Positions 16,262-39,141 of a stretch of DNA of 64,000 nt are shown piece by piece. The translations under genes were made by a program, and so were the position numbers. The DNA comes from Polyangia bacterium (GTDB lineage: Bacteria; Myxococcota_A; Polyangia; Fen-1088). The notes under the pieces are model-generated. The model was not told where the DNA came from, made no database searches, and worked only from the letters and a program-made list of their open reading frames with translations. Position 1 is the stretch's first letter; each line of letters opens with the position of its first letter. The stretch spans positions 124,001-188,000 of the forward strand of contig DATATI010000001.1 of the NCBI GenBank assembly GCA_036268875.1, written 5' to 3'.

Positions 16262-19042
16262 ATGCATTGGTCAGCCAAAGCGGCGGGCAGCCTCGGCCGT
16301 CGCCTTCTATCTCGTTCCCGGGCCGTGACCGTCGCGGCGGTCCTGACCATGGCCGCCAGCGCGCCCGCGGCGAGTGCGGCGGCGCAGCCCGGCCCGGCCG
16401 GCCGGCTGGAGCTCCGCGACGGCTGGGCGGTGCAATCGTCGCGCAAGGTGAAGGCGGCCGGCGAGGTGGTGTCGACGAAAGGATTCGCCACCGCTGGCTG
16501 GTACCAGGCCGCAGTGCCGGCGACTGTGCTGGCCGCTCAGGTGGCCGCCGGCGCGTACAAGGACCTGTATCGCGGCATGAACCTGCGCAAGCTGCCAGGA
16601 ATGACGTATCCGATCGGACTCAATTCCTTCTCAAACGTCCCAATGCGAAAAGACAGCCCTTACGCGGTGGCCTGGTGGTACCGCACCGAGGTCAGTCTGC
16701 CGGCCGCATTCGCCGGGAAACGGGTCTGGCTGCACCTGGGCGGCGTCAACTACCGGGCCAACCTGTGGATCAACGGACACAAGGTAGCCAGCGACAAGGA
16801 CCTGCAGGGCGCCTATCGCATTTACGACCTGGACGTCACCGACCACCTGTACCCGGGCGAGACCAACGTGCTGGCGCTGGATGTGTCGGCGCCGACGGAA
16901 AAGCAGCTGGGCATCAACTGGGTGGACTGGAACCCCACGCCGCCCGACAAGAACATGGGACTGTGGGGCGCGGCCTATCTGACCACCAGCGGGCCGGTCA
17001 GCGTTCGCCACCCGCAGGTGGTCACGCACTTTGCCAGCGCGGCGCTGGCCGAGGCGCGCCTGACCGTGATGGCGGAACTTCAGAACAGCACCGACGCCCC
17101 GGTGGCCGGCGTGGCCCGCATCAGCATCGACGGCGGCGCGGCGCTGGAACAGCCGCTGACCCTGGCCGCGCACGAGAGCCGGCGCGTGACCTTCGCGCCC
17201 GATCGCTTCGCGGCGCTGGTGGTGCAGGCACCGAAGATTTGGTGGCCGGCCGAGATGGGCCAACCCGCCCTGCACGATCTGGCGGCGACCTTCGCCGTTG
17301 GTGGCGCGGCGGTCTCCGATCAGCGAGCGATCCGCTTCGGCATTCGCGAGGTGACGTCAGAGATGACGCCGGACGGGTTCCGCCTGTTTCGCATCAACGG
17401 CCGGCGCATCCTGATCCGCGGTGGCGGCTGGATGCAGGACATGCTGCTGCGTCCGGATAGCCAGCGCTTGCAAGCCCAGCTTTCGTACGTGCAGGACATG
17501 CACCTCAATACGCTGCGCCTGGAAGCGCAGTTCGAGACCGACGAATTCTTCGATCTCGCCGATCAAAAGGGTCTGCTCATCATGGCCGGCTGGTGCTGCT
17601 GCGACATCTGGGAGAAATGGAAGGACTGGCCGCGGGGCACGCTGGAGGTGGCGACGGCGCAGCTGCGCTCGCAGGCCCTGCGCCTGCGCCGCCACCCATC
17701 GATGATCTCCTGGATGAACGGCAGCGACGGGCCACCGCCCGCCGACGTCGAGGCGGCGTACGCCAAGACGCTGGCCGACGCCGCCTGGCCGAACGTGGTG
17801 CTGAACTCGGCGGCCGACGCCGACAGCAAGGTCACGGGTCGCACGGGCCTGAAGATGTCCGGGCCTTACGATTACGAACCGCCGAGCTACTGGTTCTCCG
17901 ACCAGCGCAAGCTCTTGACCAAGAAAGGAATGATCAGCACCAGGTTCGGTGGCGCCTTCGGCTTCAACACCGAGACCGGCCCCGGCCCGGCCATTCCGGC
18001 GCTGGAAAGCCTGAAGAAGATGCTGCCGCCCGAGCATCTGTGGCCGATGGACAACGTCTGGGGCTACCACGCCGCCGGCGAGCGTTTTCAAACCATGGGT
18101 CAATTTCACGCCGCCATGAAGGCGACTTACGGCGCGCCCACCGACCTGAATGATTTTCTCCGCAAGGCTCAGGCCATGGCCTACGACGGCCAGCGCGCCA
18201 TGTACGAGGCGTACAGCCGCAACAAGTACACGTCCACCGGCGTGATCCAGTGGCTGATCAACAGCGCCTGGCCCTCGACGTTCTGGCACCTTTACGACTA
18301 CTACCTTTATCCGACCGGCGGTTACTTCGGGACCAAGCTGGCGTGCCAGCCGCTGCACGTGCTGTTTTCCCCCGACGATCGTGGCGTGTTCGTGGTGAAC
18401 AGCCGGCAAGAGGCGGCCAGGGGCCTGGCGGTGACGGCGCGGGCCTTCGATTTTGCCCTGAGGGAAATCTTCGCCAGCAAGGTCATGGTGGATTCCGCCG
18501 CCGACAGCAGCGCGCGGGTGGCGACCATTCCGGCTTTTCCTCCGGGCAAGGGCGTCTACTTCGTCAAGCTGACGGTGGCCGACGGGGCGGAAAATCCCCT
18601 GGCCTCGAACTTTTACTGGCTGCCCGCCGCGCCGTCGACGATCGCCTGGAACAAGGTCAAGGACACCGCCATCGCGCCCATCCGCACGTTCGAAGACCTG
18701 ACCTTGCTGAACAAACTCGCGCCGGCCAAGCTGACCGTCAGCGCCAGCCGCGCCGACCACGACGGCGCCGCCGAGGTCGCCGTCACCGTCAGCAACCCCA
18801 CCGCCGGTCTGGCGTTTCAAGTGCACCTGGGCGTGCGCCAAGGCCAGGACGAAGAGGTGCTGCCAGTGTTGTGGCAGGACAATTATCTGTCGCTGTTGCC
18901 CGGGGAAAGTCGCACCGTGATCGCCCGCTATCTGCCCGGCACCAAGCTGGACGCCGCCGCCACTGTGCTGGTGGACGGCTGGAACATTCCCGCCACCACC
19001 GTGGCCATCAGCGACGTCGCCGCTTCGCAGGCCATCAAATAA
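16262..19042 (+). CDS. secreted GH2 exo-beta-D-glucosaminidase-like enzyme
   Basis: Predicted exo-acting hydrolase releasing glucosamine from chitosan oligosaccharides. Signal peptide about residues 1-40, then a galactose-binding-like domain, an immunoglobulin-like domain, a (beta/alpha)8 catalytic barrel and further beta domains (926 residues). The catalytic signature matches the CsxA type: acid/base Asp in WMNGSD (Asp489, where most GH2 enzymes have Glu) and nucleophile Glu in FNTETG (Glu571). CWP-type general GH2 elements such as GVNYRANLWING are present. It suits a predator or degrader of fungal or arthropod material. A hairpin follows the stop codon. Confidence 0.88.
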   Translation: MHWSAKAAGSLGRRLLSRSRAVTVAAVLTMAASAPAASAAAQPGPAGRLELRDGWAVQSSRKVKAAGEVVSTKGFATAGWYQAAVPATVLAAQVAAGAYKDLYRGMNLRKLPGMTYPIGLNSFSNVPMRKDSPYAVAWWYRTEVSLPAAFAGKRVWLHLGGVNYRANLWINGHKVASDKDLQGAYRIYDLDVTDHLYPGETNVLALDVSAPTEKQLGINWVDWNPTPPDKNMGLWGAAYLTTSGPVSVRHPQVVTHFASAALAEARLTVMAELQNSTDAPVAGVARISIDGGAALEQPLTLAAHESRRVTFAPDRFAALVVQAPKIWWPAEMGQPALHDLAATFAVGGAAVSDQRAIRFGIREVTSEMTPDGFRLFRINGRRILIRGGGWMQDMLLRPDSQRLQAQLSYVQDMHLNTLRLEAQFETDEFFDLADQKGLLIMAGWCCCDIWEKWKDWPRGTLEVATAQLRSQALRLRRHPSMISWMNGSDGPPPADVEAAYAKTLADAAWPNVVLNSAADADSKVTGRTGLKMSGPYDYEPPSYWFSDQRKLLTKKGMISTRFGGAFGFNTETGPGPAIPALESLKKMLPPEHLWPMDNVWGYHAAGERFQTMGQFHAAMKATYGAPTDLNDFLRKAQAMAYDGQRAMYEAYSRNKYTSTGVIQWLINSAWPSTFWHLYDYYLYPTGGYFGTKLACQPLHVLFSPDDRGVFVVNSRQEAARGLAVTARAFDFALREIFASKVMVDSAADSSARVATIPAFPPGKGVYFVKLTVADGAENPLASNFYWLPAAPSTIAWNKVKDTAIAPIRTFEDLTLLNKLAPAKLTVSASRADHDGAAEVAVTVSNPTAGLAFQVHLGVRQGQDEEVLPVLWQDNYLSLLPGESRTVIARYLPGTKLDAAATVLVDGWNIPATTVAISDVAASQAIK

Positions 19043-28340: not shown

Positions 28341-28772
28341 TCAAAGCGTGAACCGAAAGTGATAGGCGCCGATGTCCATGCGCTCGCGCAGGTAGAAACG
28401 ATGGGCGCCGTGGCGTTGCACCCCTGAATCGAGGTGCAGCTCGCCGCAGCCGTGCGCGCGAGCTTCGTCTTTCAGCCAATCGAGAAGCTGCTTGCCGAAC
28501 CCGGCTGAACGCGCGCCGTCCGCGGTGACCAGATCGTCGACGTAAAGGTGACGTCCCCAGGCCAGGCTTTCGGCGACGCGATAACCGGCCACTGCCTGCA
28601 CGTCAGCGCCCGAAAGCACGGCGGCCAGCCGAAACCCCGCCGCCATCATTCGTTCGATGGTGTCGCGATAGGTCTGCGGCTGCAGCGCCGGACGCAGCTG
28701 CCGCATCACCGCAAAGGTGGCGTCGATCTCCGCCGGCGCGACCATGCGCTGAACGATCGCCGTCGTCGGCAT
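28341..28772 (-). CDS. GNAT-family N-acetyltransferase
   Basis: A 143-residue acetyl-CoA-dependent acyltransferase. It has the GNAT core with the acetyl-CoA-binding motif GFGKQLLDWL (about residues 91-100), preceded by the strand region HLYVDDLVTADGARS, and ends in GAHRFYLRERMDIGAYHFR, typical of the fold. The ATG overlaps the stop of the fused hydrolase (TGATG), so it is the last gene of the carrier-protein operon. Acetylation of an amino group on the pathway product is a reasonable guess. The frame extends far upstream, but that part is a shadow of the hydrolase. Confidence 0.85.
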   Translation of the reverse strand: MPTTAIVQRMVAPAEIDATFAVMRQLRPALQPQTYRDTIERMMAAGFRLAAVLSGADVQAVAGYRVAESLAWGRHLYVDDLVTADGARSAGFGKQLLDWLKDEARAHGCGELHLDSGVQRHGAHRFYLRERMDIGAYHFRFTL

Positions 28773-30601
28773 CAAAGACCGCTGAGGTGGCGGGTCAGCA
28801 GATCCATCAACGGTCCGTGTGACCACAGGGGCGTGAAGGTGTGGTCGGGCCCGTCGATGGTGTCCATCGTGACGTGCCCCTCCAGCTTGCCGGGCGGGCC
28901 CAGCCGGCGTAGCCCACGGCCGAGGTGGGCCTGGATGTTGTCCAGGCCGGGATCGGTCGCGCAGAAGATCAGGTATGTGTTGATCCGGCGGGCGATGCTG
29001 GCGCGAAAAGCGGTCAGCACCTCGTCCTGCGGGGCGCGCACCATCTCCAAGAGCGGCGACATCTGATCGCGGGCCACGTCGGCGGCGCGCGCGCCCAGCA
29101 GGCGCGCGACGCGCGGAATATCCACGTCGCCGCGCAGCAGCTTGGCCCAGCTTTCTGCTTTGAACAGCGACTGGCGATAGTGCTGCGACGCCTGATAGCT
29201 GGTCCGCCGGGCCACGTCCAGCGACGTGCCTTCCTTCCAGAAGAAAAGCTGTGGGTTGATCAGCATCGTGCTGTCGATGGCCGGATCGGTCAGGGCGGCG
29301 TGAAAGGCCACAAACGCACCCGAGCAAAGACCCATCACCGTCACCGCCGCGAACGATCCCCGGTCGCGCAGAAACTTCACCGCGCCCTGCGCTTCGGGCA
29401 CGGAGATCATCGAGTAAAGCCGCGCCCCCACCGGATCCTCGCCGGCGCTGTCGCCCAGGCCCGAGAGATCCAGGCGCAGCGACGTCATCCCGCGCCGGGC
29501 CCATGCGCGGGCCATCTCGACATAAAGGCGGTTGGGGCCGACGCGGCGGATGGCGCCGGCGTTCAACATGATCACCCCGCGCCGGCGGGCTGGCGCGCTG
29601 TGGCCGTTGCTGCCCTCGCCGGGCAACGGTTCACAGAGGATCCCGTGCAGGCGCAGGCCGCCGGCGACGAACGAGACCGCTTCCTCGCGCACGGCCGGAC
29701 CACCGCTGGCGGGCGCGGGAATGGTCGACGCGTTCTTCAGAAGATCCGTTGCCGCCGGCGAACGGACTTGAGGGGCGGGCTGACTGTGCGCCACCAGCCA
29801 GTCGGCCATCGCCTGCATCGCGGCCACCGGCCGCACCGAACGATGCGGATCCTGCATCAGGGCAAGATACCCGGGCACCTTCGATTCGCACGTCTCCACG
29901 CCCAGGCTTTGCAGCCGCTTGGTCAGGCGGCTGTCGTCGGGAATGTCGTCGCGTTGCAGGATCAGCGCGGCTTCGGCCGGCCGGCGAGCGATGGTCAAAA
30001 GATTCAGCGCGGTCAGCGCCTGCATGGTCGACGCCGACAACAAGAAACCCGCCGCCTCTTCCTCGTCGTCGCCGCGACCCAAGGTCATGCCCGGTCGTGC
30101 CGCCGGCGCCCCGGTGTCGCCGGTCAGGCGCAGCATCTTCATCTCGCGCAGGAAGGCCTTGCCGCTGGCGCAAGGCGCCCACAAGACCTGGGCGCGCACG
30201 TCGCTGCGGCCGGCGGCCGCGCTGGCGGCGAGCAGCGCGCCCAGGCGCAGGCCGACCAGCGCCACCTGCGCGCAGCCGCTCAAGCGCTTCGCTTCGTCGA
30301 TGGCGGCGCCGATGCTGTGCAGCCAGGCCGCCACGCGATCGGGCTGGCCATCGTCGCCCGACGAATCGCCGGTGCCGTGATAGTCGAAGCGCACCACCGG
30401 CAATCCCGCCGAGGCCAGCGCATCGCCGAGCGCGCGCAGGCCGCGGTGGGCGCAGATCGCCTCGTAGCCGAAGGGCGGGCAGATCACCACCGCCAGGTCG
30501 CGCGCGACGCCGCCGTCGACCTCGGCGGCGGGCGGGTGATACCAGCCGAACAGCGGCGCCTCGGCGGCGCCGAACCAGAAAGGACGGCCGGTGTCGATCA
30601 A
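28772..30601 (-). CDS. fused tandem alpha/beta hydrolase (exosortase-associated hydrolase 2 + 1 type)
   Basis: A 609-residue cytoplasmic protein made of two alpha/beta-hydrolase domains. The N-half (about 1-280, VICPPFGYE, VVRFDYHGTGDSSG) resembles hydrolase 2 and the C-half (about 305-609, RVGPNRLYVEMARAW, LRLDLSGLGDSAG) hydrolase 1 of exosortase A exopolysaccharide loci. The nucleophile elbows are unusual: GLRLG (Arg119 instead of Ser) and GLCSG (Cys426 at the nucleophile position). A C-terminal His (PDHTF) is present. It starts with TTG sharing bases with the GH2 stop (TTGA) and overlaps the GNAT gene. A thioesterase or acyl-transfer role on carrier-bound substrates is inferred. Confidence 0.82.
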   Translation of the reverse strand: MIDTGRPFWFGAAEAPLFGWYHPPAAEVDGGVARDLAVVICPPFGYEAICAHRGLRALGDALASAGLPVVRFDYHGTGDSSGDDGQPDRVAAWLHSIGAAIDEAKRLSGCAQVALVGLRLGALLAASAAAGRSDVRAQVLWAPCASGKAFLREMKMLRLTGDTGAPAARPGMTLGRGDDEEEAAGFLLSASTMQALTALNLLTIARRPAEAALILQRDDIPDDSRLTKRLQSLGVETCESKVPGYLALMQDPHRSVRPVAAMQAMADWLVAHSQPAPQVRSPAATDLLKNASTIPAPASGGPAVREEAVSFVAGGLRLHGILCEPLPGEGSNGHSAPARRRGVIMLNAGAIRRVGPNRLYVEMARAWARRGMTSLRLDLSGLGDSAGEDPVGARLYSMISVPEAQGAVKFLRDRGSFAAVTVMGLCSGAFVAFHAALTDPAIDSTMLINPQLFFWKEGTSLDVARRTSYQASQHYRQSLFKAESWAKLLRGDVDIPRVARLLGARAADVARDQMSPLLEMVRAPQDEVLTAFRASIARRINTYLIFCATDPGLDNIQAHLGRGLRRLGPPGKLEGHVTMDTIDGPDHTFTPLWSHGPLMDLLTRHLSGL

Positions 30602-33186
30602 GACGTCGCCGCCAGCGCGATGCGCGTCGACGACTGCGCGTTCAGCGGCTGCACCTGACCGCGCGGATCGCTGGAGGCGCCCGCCCTCCGTAGACCCACC
30701 TGCCGGCTGCCGCCGGGGGCGACGTGAAAATAATTGTCGTCGGCGACGAAGCCCGGCACGTCGACGGCCACCGCCTGGGCAAACCGGCGGCTGCGCACCA
30801 CCAGCGTGAAGTGGCCGTCGGACAGCGCACGAGCCGAGGCCTCAAGCCCAAGGTCGGCCTCCTGCGGCCGCGCCCGGCCGGTGGGAAAAAAGAAAGCTTC
30901 GGCGGCCACGTCGCCCGACGCGGACACCAGCCGCGCCACCGCCAGATCGTGATCCGCGGGGCCGAAATGATAGGCCAAGGTGGTGTCGCGAAAACCTTCC
31001 AGCAGCGCCGCCGACGGCAGCGACAGCGTGCCCCGCGCTGGAACCGTCACCGGCGCGGCGCCAGCGCCCACCGGCACCTCGCCGTCGCGGTGCAAGGTCA
31101 GGCGCAGCTCGCCTTGCCAGGGCGCCGCGGTTTCATTGACGGCGTGCAGGACCGTCCCGTTCAAGCCTTCGTCCGAAAAGAACAGCGCCAGCGGTTGCAG
31201 CGCGCGCCGCACAAAGTGATACGCCGCCTTCGGGCGGCCGGCAGCGTCCAGCAAGCCCCACCCGGCGCCCGGCACCAGATCGCGCAGAAACCACACCAGC
31301 GCGCCCCGACAAGTTGAGCCCGGACGCCGCCACTCGGCGAACGCCGCCGCCATCACCTCGCCGCTCACCACCCGCCCCAGGGCCAGATACCGCTCCGGAT
31401 CATTCGATCGAAGGGTAGCGGGATCGACGCCAAAGAGAAGCGCCAAGTAGTGGTCGCGAACGTCGTCGAAGTCCCATCCGGCGCCGAGATCGCGCGGCAC
31501 GCCCGCTTTCCACGCCGGCGTGTGGGCGCGCGCCGGCGCGCCGCCGGTCACCGTCGCCAGCATCGCACCGTCCGGGATGTTGGCGAAGGCCAGGCACTCG
31601 GAGGCGAAGCGCACGCCCGAACGGCGCGCGTCTTCCAGCGGCCGGCGATACGCGCCCACGCCATAGTACGACGTCGTTCCCTCCGACGGCTGGTGCGGAA
31701 ACGCGCCCCCGCTGGCGCTGGACGGCCAATAGGGAACGTCCGGACAGAGGGCGCGCGCCGCGGCCGGCAGGGTCTGGCGAAACAGCGGTCGATCCCAGGT
31801 CGCGCGCGCCGCGCCCCACATCGCCGCTTGCTGTTCACCCTCGCTGTCGCCGCACAACAGCGCCAGCGACGGGCGGCCTTGCCAGCGACGCAGCATCTGC
31901 TGCGCCTCGATCTGCACGCCGGCCACGAAGGCTGGATCTTCCGGGTAGTCCATGTTGGCGAACATGAAGTCTTGCCAGACCAAGATTCCGAGCTCGTCGC
32001 AGAGATCGTAAAACGCGTCAGTCTCGTAGACCATCGGGCCGCCCACGCGCACCATGTTCATGCCGGCGGCGCGCACGGCGACGAGCGTGTCGCGCAACGA
32101 TTCGGCGTCGGCGTTCAAGGTGGTGACGTCGACTGGCGTCCAGCAAGCGCCGCGACAGAACACCGGCGTTTCGTTGACGGACAAGGCAAAGTCGCCGCCC
32201 GCGCTGGCCAGCGTGGCGGTGCGGAACCCTGTTTTTCCCAGATCGATCGTGACCTCGGCGCCGCCGATGGTGATCACCGCGCGCGCTTCGTACAGCGGTT
32301 GGGCGCCGTGCGTGTGCGGCCACCACCGCGCCACGCCAGCGATCCGCAGCGCGCCGGCGATGGCCACCGTCGCCGGCGCCGCGCCGGCGCCCGCCGCCAC
32401 GCGCACGTCCAGCGCGGCTTCGCGCGCGAGGCCGTCCGGGCCGATGACGATCAACCGCGCGCCGGCGATCGCATCGCCCCCACCGACGATCGGCCGCAAG
32501 GTCAGCGACAAAGCCACCGTGCCGACGTCGCCGGCGACGGTCGGGCGCAGGTCGATGTCGCCCACTTCGAAGCCGCGCTGGCGCAGCAGAGTGACGGGCC
32601 GCCACGGACCGACCGGCGGCGCGTCCGGCGACCAACCGGGGGTACGGCCAAGCAGCGTGGTGCGAACCCAACGGAGCTGCTGGTTCTCCACCATCGGCGC
32701 CCGCCAGCGCGGCCGCGGGCGCTTGACCGCCAAGACAACATCCAGGGCGTGAAACCGGATCAGCAGTTCGTTCTGCGCTATCAGACGTCCGGTGACGTCG
32801 ACGGCGGTGCGGAGGAACATGTTCTCGCTGTGAAGGACGAGCACCCCGTTCAGAAAAACGTCCGCCACCGTCGCCAGGCCCTCGAAGACCAGCGACCAAT
32901 GTTCGCCCGGGGCGGCCGACGCGCCAGCGAAGCGGCAGCGGTACCACCAGTCGGCGCCGTCCAGGCGCGCGGGCCCGGCCAAAGGAATCTCGACGCTCGC
33001 ACCACCGGCCCCGGCCGCTCGCAGCGCGCCGGCGGCCGTGCCGGGCGCCGCCGCCGGAAACCAGCGCAGACGCAAACTGGCCAGCGCGTCCGGTGTCGTC
33101 GCCGCGCCCGGCGCCGTCCAGCCAAGCTCCCACTGGTCCGCGACGGGCGCGCTGGTGGCCAGCGAATTCTGCCGCGCGGCTGGCAC
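30598..33186 (-). CDS. cytosolic GH2 beta-mannosidase-like protein
   Basis: An 862-residue glycoside hydrolase family 2 protein with a sugar-binding N-terminal domain (VADVFLNGVLVLHSENMF), immunoglobulin-like domain and (beta/alpha)8 barrel. Candidate acid/base Glu449 in LCGDSEGE (beta-mannosidases usually have GNNE) and nucleophile Glu530 in FASECL are both kept. No signal peptide, so it acts inside the cell, unlike the secreted GH2 at 16262. GTG start 17 nt after the carrier-protein stop; its stop overlaps the next start. Its place in a carrier-protein operon suggests a sugar conjugate as substrate or product; a transglycosylase role is possible. Confidence 0.85.
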   Translation of the reverse strand: MPAARQNSLATSAPVADQWELGWTAPGAATTPDALASLRLRWFPAAAPGTAAGALRAAGAGGASVEIPLAGPARLDGADWWYRCRFAGASAAPGEHWSLVFEGLATVADVFLNGVLVLHSENMFLRTAVDVTGRLIAQNELLIRFHALDVVLAVKRPRPRWRAPMVENQQLRWVRTTLLGRTPGWSPDAPPVGPWRPVTLLRQRGFEVGDIDLRPTVAGDVGTVALSLTLRPIVGGGDAIAGARLIVIGPDGLAREAALDVRVAAGAGAAPATVAIAGALRIAGVARWWPHTHGAQPLYEARAVITIGGAEVTIDLGKTGFRTATLASAGGDFALSVNETPVFCRGACWTPVDVTTLNADAESLRDTLVAVRAAGMNMVRVGGPMVYETDAFYDLCDELGILVWQDFMFANMDYPEDPAFVAGVQIEAQQMLRRWQGRPSLALLCGDSEGEQQAAMWGAARATWDRPLFRQTLPAAARALCPDVPYWPSSASGGAFPHQPSEGTTSYYGVGAYRRPLEDARRSGVRFASECLAFANIPDGAMLATVTGGAPARAHTPAWKAGVPRDLGAGWDFDDVRDHYLALLFGVDPATLRSNDPERYLALGRVVSGEVMAAAFAEWRRPGSTCRGALVWFLRDLVPGAGWGLLDAAGRPKAAYHFVRRALQPLALFFSDEGLNGTVLHAVNETAAPWQGELRLTLHRDGEVPVGAGAAPVTVPARGTLSLPSAALLEGFRDTTLAYHFGPADHDLAVARLVSASGDVAAEAFFFPTGRARPQEADLGLEASARALSDGHFTLVVRSRRFAQAVAVDVPGFVADDNYFHVAPGGSRQVGLRRAGASSDPRGQVQPLNAQSSTRIALAATS

Positions 33187-33203
33187 GTCCAGTGGCGAGC
33201 GGC

Positions 33204-33458
33204 TCAGCGGCCCCCCGTCAGCTCCTCGATGGCGGCGCGGATGGCGGCGATGCTCTCGAAGACGCTGCGCCTCAACATCGCGTCAGGGAACTCGACGTCG
33301 AAGGCGCCCTCCAGTGCCAGCATCACGTTGACGCTGGCGTGAGAGGTCATCCCCGCCTGATAGAGATCGTTCTCGTCAGTCAGGGTGGGGACTTCTTTGG
33401 CCAGGCGGCCGTGCTCGGTGAGGATCTCGCGAATCTTGGTGGTGGTTTGTTCGGGCAT
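33204..33458 (-). CDS. carrier protein (aminoacyl/acyl carrier)
   Basis: An 84-residue phosphopantetheine carrier. The attachment site is Ser39 in DLYQAGMTSHASVNVML; the TSxAS pattern is typical of carriers paired with amino acid:[carrier protein] ligases, whereas fatty-acid ACPs have DSL. The remaining sequence fits a four-helix ACP. It starts 9 nt after the holo-ACP synthase gene, which probably activates it, and lies in the same operon as the ligase at 34934. Confidence 0.9.
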   Translation of the reverse strand: MPEQTTTKIREILTEHGRLAKEVPTLTDENDLYQAGMTSHASVNVMLALEGAFDVEFPDAMLRRSVFESIAAIRAAIEELTGGR

Positions 33459-33467
33459 GGTGAGGCT

Positions 33468-33887
33468 CTATCCGTGGGCTTTGTCGACGACGATGACGGC
33501 CACGACGGCGGTGGCGTAGTCGCCTTCATGGCTGAGGCTGACGGACACGCTGGACCAGCCGGCCTCGTCGGCCAGTTGTTTGGCGCGGCCGTGCAGCACC
33601 AGATCCGTCCAGCCGCCGGGCATCTGCTTGACCTCGATCGATCGCAGGTCCAGGCCCTGATCGTCCAGGCGCAGCGCCTTCAGCGTCGCTTCCTTGGCGG
33701 CGAACCGCGCGGCGAACCGCGCCGGGGCCATCATGGGGTTCGCGTTGCAGGTGGCGATCTCGTCGGCGGTGCAGATACGCCGCATGTACGCTTCGCCCAG
33801 GCTGTCCAGTGAAACAGCCACCTGGCTGACTTGCACCAGGTCGACGCCCACCACCACCCGAGGAATTCCGCTGTTTGCGCTAGACAT
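33468..33887 (-). CDS. acpS: holo-[acyl-carrier-protein] synthase (AcpS-type phosphopantetheinyl transferase)
   Basis: Transfers the phosphopantetheine arm of CoA to a carrier-protein serine. Mg-binding Asp in VGVDLVQVSQV (Asp16) and the FAAKEATLKAL motif are present; 139 residues is a normal AcpS size. The ATG at 33887 was chosen because GGGAG lies 5 nt upstream; a GTG two codons earlier overlaps that site. Adjacent to the carrier-protein gene, so it may be dedicated to this pathway or be the general AcpS of the cell. Confidence 0.92.
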   Translation of the reverse strand: MSSANSGIPRVVVGVDLVQVSQVAVSLDSLGEAYMRRICTADEIATCNANPMMAPARFAARFAAKEATLKALRLDDQGLDLRSIEVKQMPGGWTDLVLHGRAKQLADEAGWSSVSVSLSHEGDYATAVVAVIVVDKAHG

Positions 33888-33944
33888 GTTCACTCCCGGT
33901 AGACATGGCGAGGGCCAGAAGGATCGGGCGTCGTTTGGTCGGTG

Positions 33945-34943
33945 TCAAGACGCTTGCCCTCCCACCAGCGACGCCAGCTTGGCCATCCCGCGCTCCCAGG
34001 CCAGCGCGGCGTCGGCCAGCATGGGCGCGAAATCGACGGCGCGCTTGGCGTTGACGGCGCGCGCGCCTTTCAAGATCAGCGCCTTCGCCGTCGACGAGAT
34101 CTCGGTGAAGGCGTCGGCCGCTTCCTGCAGCGGTCCGCCGCCCGCGCCCGCCAGCCAGCGCAGATAAAGCGCCGCCAGCTCGAACGAAGCCCCCAGTTGC
34201 CGGAGGGTGGCGAAGGCGTAGGCGTGATAGCGACCGAGGCCCTCCGTCTGCAGCCGGGCGATGTCGCCCCCGAATTGTCGCGCAAACCGGGCGATGGGAT
34301 TTGCCGCCGGTCGCCGCCCGAGGTGCCGGCCCAGCAGCGACGAGGAACGCACCCGCAGCTCGGCCGGCGACAGGCGCTGCACGCGATCGACGCGGATCAG
34401 CTCGGCGAAGAACGGCATGTACGCGGGATCGACAGGCAGCCCCAGCCGGAACAGCCCGACAAAGTCGTCGCCATCCAGGGCGTAGTAGCTGGCGTTGTGA
34501 AAGTAGCCCAGGCGGCGCGCCTCGGCGTCGATGTCTTGAATGACAATGGTGGTCTTGGTGTGCTGGGTTCGATAGTCGGTGCCCTTGGTGTCGGGGAGGA
34601 AGAAGGCGTCGGCTTCGGTGCTGATCAGCTTGCCGGCGGCGACGTGGCGGACGGCGTGGTCGATCAGCGGCTGCCACACCGTCAGCTCCTGCACGTCGAC
34701 GCCGTAGAGATCCCAAAGCTCGCTGTGCGGTGGCTTGAAGAAGGTCCATTGGTCATCTTCAAAGTCCACCGCCACCGTGAACGGCAGCATGGCCATCGGA
34801 TCCAGGCCCTGCGCGTGGAGGACTTCGATCCAGATGTCGACGTAGCAATTCTTCTCGACCCAGGCGCGATCCTCGGCGTGCAGCGCGTGGCGCTGGTACG
34901 TCGCCGGATCAAGGGGGAAGACCGCCGGGTGACTCAAGGCCAC
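33945..34943 (-). CDS. DUF1839-family protein, predicted acyl/aminoacyl transferase
   Basis: A 332-residue soluble protein with the hallmarks of DUF1839: PLDPATYQRHALHAEDRAW, CYVDIWIEVLHAQGLDP, FEDDQWTFFK and RLGYFHNASYYALDGDDF. Cys33 in NCYVD, with conserved His and Asp residues further on, resembles the papain-like/BtrH-type arrangement, in which a Cys takes an acyl group from a carrier protein; this is inference. The GTG start overlaps the ligase gene by 10 nt; an in-frame TTG two codons later is possible. DUF1839 genes are known to sit with carrier-protein ligases. Confidence 0.85.
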   Translation of the reverse strand: MALSHPAVFPLDPATYQRHALHAEDRAWVEKNCYVDIWIEVLHAQGLDPMAMLPFTVAVDFEDDQWTFFKPPHSELWDLYGVDVQELTVWQPLIDHAVRHVAAGKLISTEADAFFLPDTKGTDYRTQHTKTTIVIQDIDAEARRLGYFHNASYYALDGDDFVGLFRLGLPVDPAYMPFFAELIRVDRVQRLSPAELRVRSSSLLGRHLGRRPAANPIARFARQFGGDIARLQTEGLGRYHAYAFATLRQLGASFELAALYLRWLAGAGGGPLQEAADAFTEISSTAKALILKGARAVNAKRAVDFAPMLADAALAWERGMAKLASLVGGQAS

Positions 34944-35848
34944 AGTCGGTCGCGAACCTCTTTGGGCCAGGTCGCGGTGTCGCAGCCGTGATGGCGGAAC
35001 AGCGCCATCACACAGCGTTCAAGGCCGAATCCCAGGCACGCGGTGTGCGCGGTCTCGCCCGACTGGGTCTTGATGGCGAAGGTGTGGCCAAAATGTTCCT
35101 GGTGATAATTGAACGAGCACACCGCCGTCGGGTGCTCCTCGGAGATCACCGGCACCAGCACCTCGAACTTCAGCTTTTGATCTTTCTGGCTGACCGCCAG
35201 CATGCGCCCGCCGCGGCCGAAGAACGGATCCGACGCCACGTCGGGTTTGGCCGGCAAACCGAGCGACGTCAGCAGCTCGACGCCGCGCTTGACCCACAGG
35301 TCGCGCCACTGCACGACCATGTCCGGCGTCCCCACGCGCACGAACTCGCGCACGCGGAAGGCTTGCATGCGGGTCGGCTCGGCCGACGGTTCGTGGCGGT
35401 AGACCCAGTTCTGCATATCGACCAGGCGGCCCTTTTCCGGGATGACGCCGGTGAAGCTGGGATAGACCGGATAGCAGGCGGCCGGATTCAACACCACCTG
35501 GGTCATGCCCTGCAGATGCCCCCAAGGCTCGCCGGCGTGGACCTTCTCGCTGAGGCTGTGGTGATCCTTCTCGTTGCCGAAGAAGCTGAACACCGTGCCC
35601 GCCAGCTGCGGGAACGAATCCAGGAAGTCGCTGCGCTCCAGCACCTTGCGGTCGATTATCGGCGGGAACAGCATCACCTCGGCGCCGTCGTCGCGGGCCA
35701 CACGCGTGACCGCGTCGTTGAACCGCGCCAGCACGTCTTCGAACATCGGCCCGCGCCCGAACGCGCCCGGCACACCGACCGGAATGATCAAGCGATGCTT
35801 GACCATCTCTTCGTAGAATTTCCCCGGATCGTAGTCTTTCGCGGCCAC
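34934..35848 (-). CDS. amino acid:[carrier protein] ligase (seryl-tRNA-synthetase-like)
   Basis: A 304-residue class II aminoacyl-tRNA-synthetase-like enzyme that lacks the tRNA-binding arm of SerRS. In this family the protein adenylates a small amino acid (Gly or Ala in the described Bradyrhizobium and Agrobacterium enzymes) and transfers it to a carrier protein. Motif 2 is RMQAFRVREFVRVG (Arg160, Glu168), motif 3 is CLGFGLERCVMALF (Arg278). Cys125, Glu168 and Cys271 are candidates for the family's zinc site. Strong ribosome-binding site (AAGGAGG) before the GTG start. Carrier protein and AcpS are in the same operon. Confidence 0.92.
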   Translation of the reverse strand: MAAKDYDPGKFYEEMVKHRLIIPVGVPGAFGRGPMFEDVLARFNDAVTRVARDDGAEVMLFPPIIDRKVLERSDFLDSFPQLAGTVFSFFGNEKDHHSLSEKVHAGEPWGHLQGMTQVVLNPAACYPVYPSFTGVIPEKGRLVDMQNWVYRHEPSAEPTRMQAFRVREFVRVGTPDMVVQWRDLWVKRGVELLTSLGLPAKPDVASDPFFGRGGRMLAVSQKDQKLKFEVLVPVISEEHPTAVCSFNYHQEHFGHTFAIKTQSGETAHTACLGFGLERCVMALFRHHGCDTATWPKEVRDRLWP

Positions 35849-35865
35849 GCGGTCCTCCTTCGCGT

Positions 35866-37032
35866 TCAGTCGTCCTTGTACACCAGCAGCAGCGACGCGC
35901 TCTTGGACAGGATGCGGTCGTTGCCGATCATCAGCGCGGCCGAGAGGGAATCACGCAGGTGTCGCCCGACGCTGAAAGGGGTGTCGTTCTTGTAGCCCAT
36001 GATCCCGCAGATCCCCAGGGCATGCTGGACGATGTCCGCGGTCTGCTGCGACGTCGCGATCTTGAGGTTGTTCATCTTCAGAGCGAAGCCCAGGCTGGAC
36101 AGCGCTTCGTTGCCTTCCGGCGCGCGCAGCAAGCGATCGCTCTCGGCGTTCACCGCCTGCACGTTGTTGCGCATCGACTGCAGCCGCGTCGACAGCTCGG
36201 CCAGGCGCAACGCCGTCGGCGGCACAGTGCCGGGTTTCTTGCGCGCCTCGGCCCGCACGAAGGCGCTGGCCCGTGCGGCCGCGTCGGTGGCGATGCCCAG
36301 CCACACCGACGACCACAGCAAATGGGAAAAAGGCACCATGGTCTGCGCCGACGAGTCAGCGAACGAGCCGGGAAGGATCTGTTCTTCCGGTCCCGCCGAC
36401 GTCAGCTTGAAGCCGGGGCTGCACGTTCCGCGCATGCCCAGCGTGTCCCAGGCGGTGGTGCGCGCCAAATTGAAATCGCCCTTGCGCAACAGCACCAGCA
36501 CCTGATCGCTGGCCGCCGCATCGGGGGCGCGCCGGCAGGTGACCAGCAGATCGTCGGCCTGTTCGCCGTAGGAAATGGTGGTGGCGTCCTTGTTCAGCTT
36601 GAAGCGGCCGCCCTCGCGCTCGACGGCGCAGACGCTGGAGCGGGTGTCGCCGCCCACGCCGACCTCCGACGTCACCGAGGCGATCAGAAGTTGTCGTTCG
36701 CACAGCTCCGACAGATAGCGACGGAAGAACGGCGACGACAGCCCGTGCCGCGCGATGCAAGCCACCTGGATATGGTGCATGGCCACCACCATCCCGGTCG
36801 ACGAGCAGTGCTGGGCCAGGGCCATGCACATCGCGCCCAGCTCGGAGATGCCGTGGCCAAGGCCACCCAGTTCCTTGGGCACGAACGCGCCCAGAAGTTT
36901 TTCCCGTTTCAGCTCGTCGATGGCCTCGCGGGGAAAGCGCGCGTTGCGATCGACATCGTCGGCGTGGCGGGCGGCGATCTCGGCGCCGATACGCGCCGCC
37001 ACGGGGCTGGGTGACCTGGAAGGATCTGTCAC
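35866..37032 (-). CDS. acyl-CoA-dehydrogenase-like flavoprotein (probably acting on carrier-bound substrate)
   Basis: A 388-residue FAD-dependent dehydrogenase with the acyl-CoA dehydrogenase fold: N-terminal helical domain (FPREAIDELKREKLLGAF, ELGGLGHG), middle beta domain (LIASVTSEVGVGG) and C-terminal helical domain. Directly upstream of the ligase gene (17 nt apart). In this context the substrate is probably the aminoacyl-carrier thioester rather than a CoA ester, comparable to prolyl-carrier dehydrogenases, giving an unsaturated or imino acyl group. GTG start with GAGG about 9 nt upstream. Confidence 0.87.
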   Translation of the reverse strand: MTDPSRSPSPVAARIGAEIAARHADDVDRNARFPREAIDELKREKLLGAFVPKELGGLGHGISELGAMCMALAQHCSSTGMVVAMHHIQVACIARHGLSSPFFRRYLSELCERQLLIASVTSEVGVGGDTRSSVCAVEREGGRFKLNKDATTISYGEQADDLLVTCRRAPDAAASDQVLVLLRKGDFNLARTTAWDTLGMRGTCSPGFKLTSAGPEEQILPGSFADSSAQTMVPFSHLLWSSVWLGIATDAAARASAFVRAEARKKPGTVPPTALRLAELSTRLQSMRNNVQAVNAESDRLLRAPEGNEALSSLGFALKMNNLKIATSQQTADIVQHALGICGIMGYKNDTPFSVGRHLRDSLSAALMIGNDRILSKSASLLLVYKDD

Positions 37033-37090
37033 GCGGGGGTCCTCACTTTGATGAACGATGCAACAGTATCATCTTCCTCGATTATCCGCC

Positions 37091-37861
37091 TCAGCCGCGC
37101 GCGATCGTGGCGGACCCGCCGCCGCGGATGAACCGTTTGAGCGCGCGCAAGACGGGAAGCGGGATCTCGTGGCCACCGTCGAACGGCAGGAACGTGTGGT
37201 CGGCGCCGGCCGCCGCCAACTGCGTCGCCAGCGATTGCGCGGCCGCGAAGGACAGTTCGCGATCGGCGCGCCCGTGACTTTGAAACATCCGCAGGCCGCG
37301 AACGTTTTCCATTAATGAAGCCCACACGGCCGCCGTCACCCGCCCGCTGGACAGCAAGATCAATCCGGCCAGCGACGGGCGACTCTGCAGCACCAGGTCC
37401 AACGAAAGAATCGCCCCTTGCGAGAAACCGCCCAGAAACAGCGGCCGCCCCGGCCAGCGGGCCCGCACTTCGCCGACCAGCGCCGCCAGCGCGCGCCGGG
37501 CGGCGGGCAGACCGGGCGGATCTTCGTCGCCAAGGTCGCGGTCAACGCCGCCGGCGACGGCGGCATCGCGACGGGCCACATCGATCATCCACCAGGCTCG
37601 CCCGCGCAGACCGCGCGGTCGCAGATCGACCGGGCCCTCGGCGAACAGATACAGCGCTGGAACGCCCAGCGACGCGCCGAACGGCGACAGATCGTCGGCG
37701 ACCATCGAGAACCCGTGCAGCAAGACCACCACCGGCGCGGCGGCCGACCACGGCCCCCGCGGATCGCCGCCGGCGTCGACCATGCGAACGTCCAGGCCGC
37801 CGAGGGTGGTGGTGGTGACGGGCACCCACCCAGTGTCGACCGAATCGGATTTAGCGTCCAA
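37091..37861 (-). CDS. carboxylesterase/phospholipase-type alpha/beta hydrolase
   Basis: A 256-residue serine hydrolase: oxyanion region LLHGFSMVADD, nucleophile GFSQGA, Asp in SHGRADRELSF and His in DGGHEIP, all in the carboxylesterase/phospholipase order. No signal peptide. It starts with TTG at 37861, only 38 bp from the divergent acyltransferase gene, so the true start may be somewhat further inside. It lies 58 bp upstream of the dehydrogenase gene and may be the first gene of the carrier-protein operon, perhaps releasing or hydrolysing a product. Confidence 0.83.
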   Translation of the reverse strand: MDAKSDSVDTGWVPVTTTTLGGLDVRMVDAGGDPRGPWSAAAPVVVLLHGFSMVADDLSPFGASLGVPALYLFAEGPVDLRPRGLRGRAWWMIDVARRDAAVAGGVDRDLGDEDPPGLPAARRALAALVGEVRARWPGRPLFLGGFSQGAILSLDLVLQSRPSLAGLILLSSGRVTAAVWASLMENVRGLRMFQSHGRADRELSFAAAQSLATQLAAAGADHTFLPFDGGHEIPLPVLRALKRFIRGGGSATIARG

Positions 37862-37899: not shown

Positions 37900-39141
37900 A
37901 TGAACAACGCTCCTGGCAACAGTGACACCGGCGCCGGCCCAGGCGAGCCAGCCGGGCTTGCCGACCACGCTCGGCCGACCACGCTTTTGCCCGGGCGCAT
38001 TCCCGCGCTGGACGGCTTGCGCGGCGTGGCCATCCTTCTGGTCCTGTTGCACCAGTTCAACGTCCTTGATCCGCACGCCGGACTGACGGCACGCCTTCAG
38101 ACGGCGATGGTCGAACCGGGCTGGATCGGCGTTCAACTTTTCTTCGTGCTGTCCGGCTTCCTGATCACCGGCATCTTGCTGGACGCCAAGGGCGCGCCGA
38201 ATTTCTTTCGGAGGTTCTACCGGCGGCGCGTGCAGCGGATCTTTCCGCTTTATTACCTGGTGCTGGCGGCGACGTTCTTCCTGCTGCCGTGGGCGGCGCC
38301 GGCCATCGCCGCGCGCACCGGCGTCGGCCATCACCACCTCTGGTACTGGTTCTACCTGCAGAACTGGCCCGGGCTGGGCGGCGACGCCGATCTGCTGGGC
38401 CACACCTGGTCGCTGGCCGTCGAGGAGCAGTACTACCTGGTCTGGCCGTTGGCCGTCTGGGCGCTGAGCGAACGGCGCCTCGGCCGGCTGTGCTGGGGCG
38501 TGGCGGCGGGCGCGTTCCTGTTGCGGGTAGCGATGCGCGCGGCGAGCGTGGCGCCCGAGGTGGTGTATTCATTCACGCTGGCGCGCGCCGATGCGCTGGC
38601 CATGGGCGGGTTGGTGGCGCTGGCGTTGCGGCGGGCCGAGTGGCGCGCGGCCATCGAGCGGCGGCTGCCACGCGCCACCGCCTGGACGCTGGCCGCGCTG
38701 GCGCTGGCCAGCCGAATCTTCGCCCGCAAGCAACTGGTCACGCAGACCATCGGCTACTCCGTGCTGGCCTGGGCCGGCGCGCTGCTGATCGCCTGGGTGG
38801 TGCTGAATTCGTCGAGAAGCGCCGGCGGCCCGGCGACCGCCGTCGGACGGCGGCTGCGGCGCATGTTGGACTTCCCTGCGCTGCGCGCGATCGGGCGGGT
38901 CAGCTATGGCATGTACCTGTTTCACCAGCCGCTGCACCTTTTCGCCACCCGCGTCCTGCTGGCCGGACGCCTGAACGCTGATGGCACCACGCCTCGTCCG
39001 CTGGTCGCGGCGGCGTATCTGGTCACCGCCACTGCCGTGCTGTTCGCCCTGGCGCGGCTGTCGTGGATTTTTTTTGAAGGGCGATTCCTGGGGCCGTCGC
39101 CGCGGGAGGAGAATTGGAAGCGGCGCTTGGCGAAGGTTTAA
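37900..39141 (+). CDS. acyltransferase-3 family (OafA-like) membrane protein
   Basis: Multi-spanning membrane acyltransferase (413 residues, about ten hydrophobic segments) that usually O-acetylates cell-surface sugars. Family motifs: IPALDGLRGVAILLVLLHQF at the N-terminus with a conserved His, FFVLSGFLITG, RRRVQRIFPLYY and TWSLAVEEQYYLVWP. Divergent from the carrier-protein operon; a link to polysaccharide modification by that operon is possible but not shown. Confidence 0.92.
   Translation: MNNAPGNSDTGAGPGEPAGLADHARPTTLLPGRIPALDGLRGVAILLVLLHQFNVLDPHAGLTARLQTAMVEPGWIGVQLFFVLSGFLITGILLDAKGAPNFFRRFYRRRVQRIFPLYYLVLAATFFLLPWAAPAIAARTGVGHHHLWYWFYLQNWPGLGGDADLLGHTWSLAVEEQYYLVWPLAVWALSERRLGRLCWGVAAGAFLLRVAMRAASVAPEVVYSFTLARADALAMGGLVALALRRAEWRAAIERRLPRATAWTLAALALASRIFARKQLVTQTIGYSVLAWAGALLIAWVVLNSSRSAGGPATAVGRRLRRMLDFPALRAIGRVSYGMYLFHQPLHLFATRVLLAGRLNADGTTPRPLVAAAYLVTATAVLFALARLSWIFFEGRFLGPSPREENWKRRLAKV

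Follow-up and report, generated by a model that had tools for sequence, protein, structure and literature searches.

A recurring operon of a Polyangia bacterium, predicted to load an amino acid on a carrier protein and to join it to an amine

The SerRS-like amino acid:[carrier protein] ligases have been known since 2010. This report describes an operon that contains one of them, at positions 28341-37861 of a 64,000-nucleotide stretch of a Polyangia bacterium genome (GenBank assembly GCA_036268875.1, contig DATATI010000001.1, positions 124,001 to 188,000), referred to here as the window. The operon is one version of a gene set that recurs widely, and we consider it rather probable that this set is a portable thiotemplated cassette, in which an amino acid is loaded on a carrier protein (CP), modified and then joined to an amine.

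The closest described system is the gene neighbourhood of the Atu2574 type, including bll0957/bll0958 of Bradyrhizobium, in the note in proof of Iyer et al. 2010 (PMC2922099). It brings together the ligase, an acyl carrier protein (ACP), a dehydrogenase or monooxygenase as the redox enzyme, the conserved protein Atu2574 of unknown function and a glycosidase, and amide ligation of the amino acid to a sugar amine was predicted for it. We infer that Atu2574 is a DUF1839 protein. The window has the same core members and invites the same proposal, and it adds a phosphopantetheinyl transferase (PPTase), fused Cys-nucleophile hydrolases, an esterase, an Acyltransferase-3 enzyme and a GNAT enzyme; the 2010 text is a prediction that gave the unknown protein neither a fold nor an assay. 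The operon is real, conserved and previously predicted. A sequence-only reading of the window had regarded the set as uncharacterised. This holds in that the literature searched (which covered few subscription journals) yielded no product and no characterised enzyme beyond the ligase, but the 2010 prediction (PMC2922099) had already made nearly the same inference.

Other described systems resemble parts of the operon. The lincosamide synthetases CcbD and LmbD (celesticetin and lincomycin) are papain-like Cys enzymes that join a carrier-bound amino acid to the amine of an amino sugar; in CcbD, carrier-bound proline goes to the Cys and is then attacked by the amino group of a thiooctose (PMC12945683). 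CcbD/LmbD and DUF1839 have the overall fold in common. However, the lincosamide pathways use an adenylation enzyme as the loader, their CP is part of CcbZ/LmbN, and they lack the set of acyl-CoA dehydrogenase (ACAD), ligase and GH2; furthermore, the CcbD triad is Cys-His-Glu and its sequence has no detectable similarity to that of DUF1839. CtaG, crystallised with Cys-His-Asp variants (C11, H128, D144), also has this fold, but its identity to DUF1839 is about 11% and its product is not a sugar compound. In the butirosin BtrI/BtrJ/BtrH system, a papain-like enzyme likewise moves an ACP-bound aminoacyl group to an aminoglycoside amine, although the loader is of the ATP-grasp type and the side-chain chemistry differs from that of the cassette. 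BtrH belongs to the papain-like class, and DUF1839 has been assigned to the same superfamily, its triad being C-(T/S)-H (PMC10318531). Finally, the ChmG/ChmI/ChmJ system of chalkophomycin (PMC10849742) has a stand-alone ACP, an amino-acid loader and an ACAD-family enzyme without the catalytic Glu, as the operon has. ChmG is annotated as an ACAD, has Met in place of the Glu and a KijD3-like fold, and N-oxygenates prolyl-ACP; the substrate (proline), the AMP-type loader and the subsequent pyrrole formation and hydrolysis set this system apart.

The operon consists of nine tightly packed minus-strand genes, in the order given by the sequence-only reading; a divergent neighbour completes the list.

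37091-37861, minus strand: a/b-hydrolase, PF02230-type, with Ser147/Asp200/His231 kept
35866-37032, minus strand: ACAD-fold flavoenzyme, with neither known catalytic Glu (S236 and I369 at these positions)
34934-35848, minus strand: SerRS-like amino acid:[carrier protein] ligase (NF005479, 418 bits; cut-off 357)
33945-34943, minus strand: DUF1839 protein (PF08893, full length, 365 bits; cut-off 22.5)
33468-33893, minus strand: AcpS-type PPTase, with D18, E68 and K72 conserved
33204-33458, minus strand: stand-alone CP of 84 residues (NF005480, 104 bits; cut-off 72)
30598-33186, minus strand: GH2, beta-mannosidase-like, with E449 and E530 kept
28772-30601, minus strand: fused double a/b-hydrolase in hydr2-hydr1 order, GLRLG half followed by GLCSG half
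28341-28772, minus strand: GNAT N-acetyltransferase, its ATG within TGATG and overlapping the hydrolase stop codon
37900-39141, plus strand: Acyltransferase-3 (OafA-like), membrane; divergent neighbour, of a family that nine relatives have within the cassette or next to it

Starting from the 37861 end, the intergenic gaps are 58, 17, -10, 51, 9, 17, -4 and -1 bp. The three overlaps, and a widest gap of 58 bp, match the earlier description of overlapping genes with no gap above about 60 bp. The operon is on contig C1 of the source genome, a 6.15 Mb, 97%-complete assembly; a scan for promoters and terminators was uninformative at this G+C content.

DUF1839 alone was used to recruit relatives from 84,980 species genomes, which yielded 59 loci. 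The ACAD, ligase and DUF1839 genes are consecutive in 56 of them, so that the gene order on which the sequence-only reading had staked its single-pathway view is conserved in relatives. All 27 loci with long flanks have the ACAD, ligase, CP and GH2 genes; 24 also have the fused hydrolase, 19 a PPTase and 10 the PF02230 esterase. The PF02230-type hydrolase of 37091-37861 has counterparts in about 15 relatives. Judged from record titles, the loci span Myxococcota, Gamma- and Betaproteobacteria, Acidobacteriota and Solirubrobacterales (Actinomycetota). The DUF1839 protein closest to that of the window is encoded in a Myxococcales metagenome-assembled genome (67% identity), and the spread is patchy (5 of 189 genomes in the phylum of the window). 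DUF1839 is also found in 59 plasmid records, including Rhizobium, Azospirillum, Mycetohabitans, Caballeronia, Burkholderia, Cupriavidus and Shinella; the plasmid regions inspected have CP-ACAD-ligase-DUF1839-GH2, with the hydrolase present or absent. The distances between DUF1839 proteins correlate with those of their partners (ACAD, r = 0.90; GH2, 0.88; ligase, 0.85; hydrolase, 0.70; CP, 0.52), and 0 of 999 permutations reached the observed values, part of the signal being accounted for by shared species history. Because the arrangement recurs across phyla and these distances correlate, it is not due to chance. The conserved cassette and the correlated divergence of its members also agree with the earlier view that the operon serves one pathway.

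We predict the following route. The PPTase would add a phosphopantetheine arm to the 84-residue CP, in which the phosphopantetheine Ser39 is invariant (55/55). The SerRS-like ligase would activate a small amino acid, likely Gly or Ala, and load it on this arm, a reaction that has reportedly been shown for the homologue Bll0957. The Bll0957 structures (3mey, 4h2w) are the best PDB match of the ligase (E 4e-78), and C125 and E168 are present in 58/58 aligned rows and C271 in 59/59; we take these residues to correspond to the zinc ligands of the class. The match, the residues and the NF005479 score of 418 bits all point to aminoacyl loading on the CP, as had been proposed. The ligase and ACAD pair bll0957/bll0958 is expressed, since in Bradyrhizobium proteomics the two proteins differ threefold between the wild type and a phaR mutant (PMC10888616). 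A modification on the carrier would follow, catalysed by the ACAD-fold flavoenzyme and most likely an N-oxygenation of the amino acid. DUF1839, to judge from its fold and residues, would then work in ping-pong fashion as CcbD does, with the acyl group first taken onto Cys33 and then passed to an amine, most likely that of an amino sugar. Either the conjugate or the acceptor may be the substrate of the other proteins, namely the esterase, the double hydrolase with its Cys nucleophile, the GH2, the acyltransferase and the GNAT. As for what is made, a specialised small molecule or a glycoconjugate is the probable product, not a bulk surface glycan.

The proposed role of DUF1839 depends on a structural model. 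The AlphaFold2 model from 53 sequences has a pLDDT of 95.2, and all 17 Foldseek matches in the PDB at E <= 0.001 are to AziU2/U3, CtaG or CcbD, with the next match at 0.15; that the modelled fold has matches limited to these proteins is new here. C33, which is the first residue of the first helix of the model (33-44), and H149 are present in 53/53 sequences, as is T or S at position 131, and this invariance fits the triad proposed earlier (PMC10318531). The CcbD/CtaG fold, together with the invariant Cys33, T/S131 and His149, leads us to infer that DUF1839 is an aminoacyl-CP:amine amide synthase, and the Cys-based transfer put forward in the sequence-only reading gains support from the same model.

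Fold searches cannot separate dehydrogenases from oxygenases, and so residues were used to judge the chemistry of the ACAD-fold enzyme. The positions of the catalytic Glu in MCAD and IVD were mapped by pairwise alignment to solved ACADs. In all 53 homologues one of the two positions is S, A or T (236) and the other is I or V (369), whereas H86, H237, W240, W244, N371 and R373 are invariant; a 'dehydrogenase' that lacks Glu at both known catalytic-base positions is new here. The Glu is likewise missing in homologues from Priestia, Rhodococcus, Agrobacterium and genome G012, and it is retained in an ordinary ACAD from a nonribosomal peptide synthetase (NRPS) cluster of the source genome. Searched with the single sequence of the enzyme, the PDB gives the aminosugar N-oxygenase DnmZ as the best match. 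Because of the missing Glu, the DnmZ match and the ChmG precedent, N-oxygenation of the aminoacyl-CP is somewhat favoured, and the dehydrogenase-type oxidation of the thioester assumed earlier is not borne out by the residues.

Several points weigh against this route. The kinship of DUF1839 and CcbD is confined to the fold (TM about 0.6, rmsd 5-7 A, 10-17% identity), and a sequence-profile search of the PDB with DUF1839 as the query gave no meaningful hit, with neither CcbD nor CtaG at E <= 1. As sequence homology was not detected, DUF1839 is likened to CcbD and CtaG in its action and is not placed as a member of those families. AziU3, which has the same fold, is to our knowledge not an amide synthase. 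The proposed sugar acceptor has as its basis the GH2 gene and the CcbD precedent. For the ACAD-fold enzyme, fold and profile fit ordinary dehydrogenases no worse than N-oxygenases. Moreover, a flavin reductase is present at 6 of the 59 loci, and none of the PF01613 family (other reductase families were not searched) is detectable in the source genome. A flavin reductase was rejected as a constant partner on these counts; at loci L014 and L045 it adjoins a different monooxygenase.

With respect to the acceptor, it is possible, though somewhat unlikely, that the amine does not belong to a sugar but to an amino acid, a polyamine or an aryl amine, and that the GH2 activates or clears a glycosylated precursor or serves in self-protection. 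CtaG, which shares the fold of DUF1839, is the amide synthase of closthioamide, a non-sugar product; CcbD takes varied amines and acyl groups; and a variant without DUF1839 pairs with an NRPS, so peptide acceptors would be compatible. The presence of the GH2 in 27/27 long-flank DUF1839 loci, however, favours a sugar in the pathway, and this conservation and the CcbD precedent make transfer to a sugar plausible.

The ACAD-fold enzyme could instead act as a dehydrogenase proper and leave an imine or a 2,3-dehydroamino-acyl thioester on the CP, comparable to the conversion of prolyl- to pyrrolyl-peptidyl carrier protein (PCP). Its fold and profile, which match the acyl-ACP dehydrogenase TcsD among others, the prolyl-PCP dehydrogenase family NF045652 among its weak matches, and the invariant H237 as a possible alternative base are all consistent with this explanation. 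Nevertheless, it seems unlikely with Glu at neither position in the 53 homologues or in the further ones checked, and glycine has no beta carbon.

The amino acid might also be put on an amino sugar of lipopolysaccharide or exopolysaccharide as a surface decoration, the view taken in the sequence-only reading and in the 2010 note in proof, which we find quite unlikely. Acyltransferase-3 enzymes often acylate surface glycans, the hydrolases resemble those associated with exosortase A, glycosyltransferases or a Bac_transf sugar transferase are near some loci, and genes for an O-antigen ligase and GumC lie several kb upstream in Shinella; liposaccharide genes were also nearby in the 2010 note in proof (PMC2922099). 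However, neither a glycosyltransferase nor an exosortase is a conserved member, the distribution in the phylum is patchy, and no glycan gene shares the run of the five core genes in Rhizobium and Shinella. The exosortase A link made in the sequence-only reading was rejected as unsupported, as the hydrolase scores 115.7 against TIGR03100 (cut-off 168.45) and 114.1 against TIGR03101 (cut-off 202.75), the families of exosortase A-associated hydrolases 1 and 2, and as the sole PF09721 exosortase match in the source genome is on contig C29. A surface glycan is no better supported than a small molecule. The core idea of that reading is kept, with this change and with an oxygenation as the likelier redox step.

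That the aminoacyl-CP genes and the GH2/hydrolase genes are two unrelated neighbouring units is very improbable: six betaproteobacterial loci do have PPTase-CP-(GH2)-(hydrolase) divergent from ACAD-ligase-DUF1839, which makes two transcripts possible, but the split units are still adjacent, the CP goes with the GH2 side, the divergence of the GH2 follows that of DUF1839 (r = 0.88), and the many DUF1839 loci without a GH2 that would be expected were not seen.

Should DUF1839 prove to be an amide synthase like CcbD and the ACAD-fold enzyme an N-oxygenase, what the ligases are for could be tested with five purified proteins, and DUF1839 could be used to search for a so far hidden class of metabolites from soil bacteria, rhizobia and endosymbionts. 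A bolder version, in which the products form one phylum-crossing, often plasmid-borne class, with Gly or Ala loaded on the stand-alone CP by the aminoacyl-tRNA-synthetase-like ligase, N-oxidised there by a repurposed dehydrogenase and amide-linked to an amino sugar by DUF1839 as a new CcbD-like synthase family, is doubtful at present.

Natural variants exchange the loader or the transfer enzyme and retain the ACAD and the carrier, which is also new here. For example, genome G012 has CP-ACAD-ligase without DUF1839, adjoining a divergent C-A-T-TE NRPS (L091, 8785-15552), and genome G071 has CP-ACAD-DUF1839-GH2-hydrolase without the ligase (L092, 10391-16214) and no NF005479 match genome-wide. 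The Priestia aryabhattai plasmid p-LAD4 (L095, 4031-17854) has acpS-ACP-ACAD-ligase together with a DMT exporter, an ATP-grasp enzyme, a hydrolase, alaP (alanine permease) and alr (alanine racemase), and a D-Ala-D-Ala ligase gene is upstream. The company of the alanine racemase and D-Ala ligase genes is what self-protection against an alanine antimetabolite would call for, and the region resembles a cluster for such a compound. On Rhodococcus and Agrobacterium plasmids, the ACAD type and an ACP occur with an AMP-binding loader instead; that of Agrobacterium salinitolerans (L097, 3840-14861) encodes the ACAD type, an AMP ligase, an ACP, a formyltransferase and a condensation-domain protein, and N-oxygenation followed by N-formylation would yield a hydroxamate there. 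The variants are consistent with a model of a fixed CP and ACAD modifier that can be combined with different loaders and transfer enzymes, the constancy of the ACAD being by construction in the Priestia, Rhodococcus and Agrobacterium loci, which were recruited via the ACAD.

The remaining genes are less easily placed. The best PDB matches of the GH2 are GH2 beta-mannosidases, and E449 (52/53) and E530 (53/53) are presumably its catalytic residues, a role assigned by motif. Inspection of its N-terminal sequence by eye showed no signal peptide, and the protein looks cytosolic. A second GH2 in the window (16325-19042), exo-beta-glucosaminidase-like and with an apparent signal peptide, is 9 kb away and shows no sign of linkage to the operon. 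The first half of the fused hydrolase has G-L-R-L-G and no Ser/Cys nucleophile, and the second half has G-L-C-S-G with an invariant Cys426, plus H587; a second acyl-transfer or hydrolysis step is possible. The source genome has two other hydr1/2-like genes, and since these are in NRPS and polyketide synthase (PKS) clusters, such hydrolases may be a general partner of carrier-bound chains. The PF02230-type hydrolase (37091-37861) is likely a thioesterase, for release, or an editing enzyme. Flanking genes were clustered across the loci after codon-based gene calling, and the clusters include a SAM methyltransferase (14 loci), Acyltransferase-3 (nine loci and the window), a flavin reductase (six) and scattered GNATs. 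In relatives, Acyltransferase-3 is often paired with the PF02230 hydrolase, and from the comparison with the nine relatives the gene at 37900-39141 probably belongs to the operon, whose first-read boundary would be slightly short; this too is new here. The GNAT, which had been counted as a fixed member, is a local accessory; none of the 59 loci has a relative of it, and other GNATs there are sporadic.

Some other loci deserve mention. On Rhizobium johnstonii pRL10 (L099, 11702-13134), only the ACP and the ACAD are annotated, with no ligase, DUF1839 or GH2 listed and with recombinases near, and this is possibly a decaying copy. In genome G047 (L093, 1499-9393), a distant SerRS-like ligase is beside AsnB, an AMP ligase, two CPs, a GNAT and an acetyltransferase, which is another uncharacterised class. 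The source genome itself has, at C73:8000-26000 (L082, 3035-11388), an AsnB-like gene, an ordinary ACAD, a C-A-T NRPS and a hydrolase-polysaccharide deacetylase fusion.

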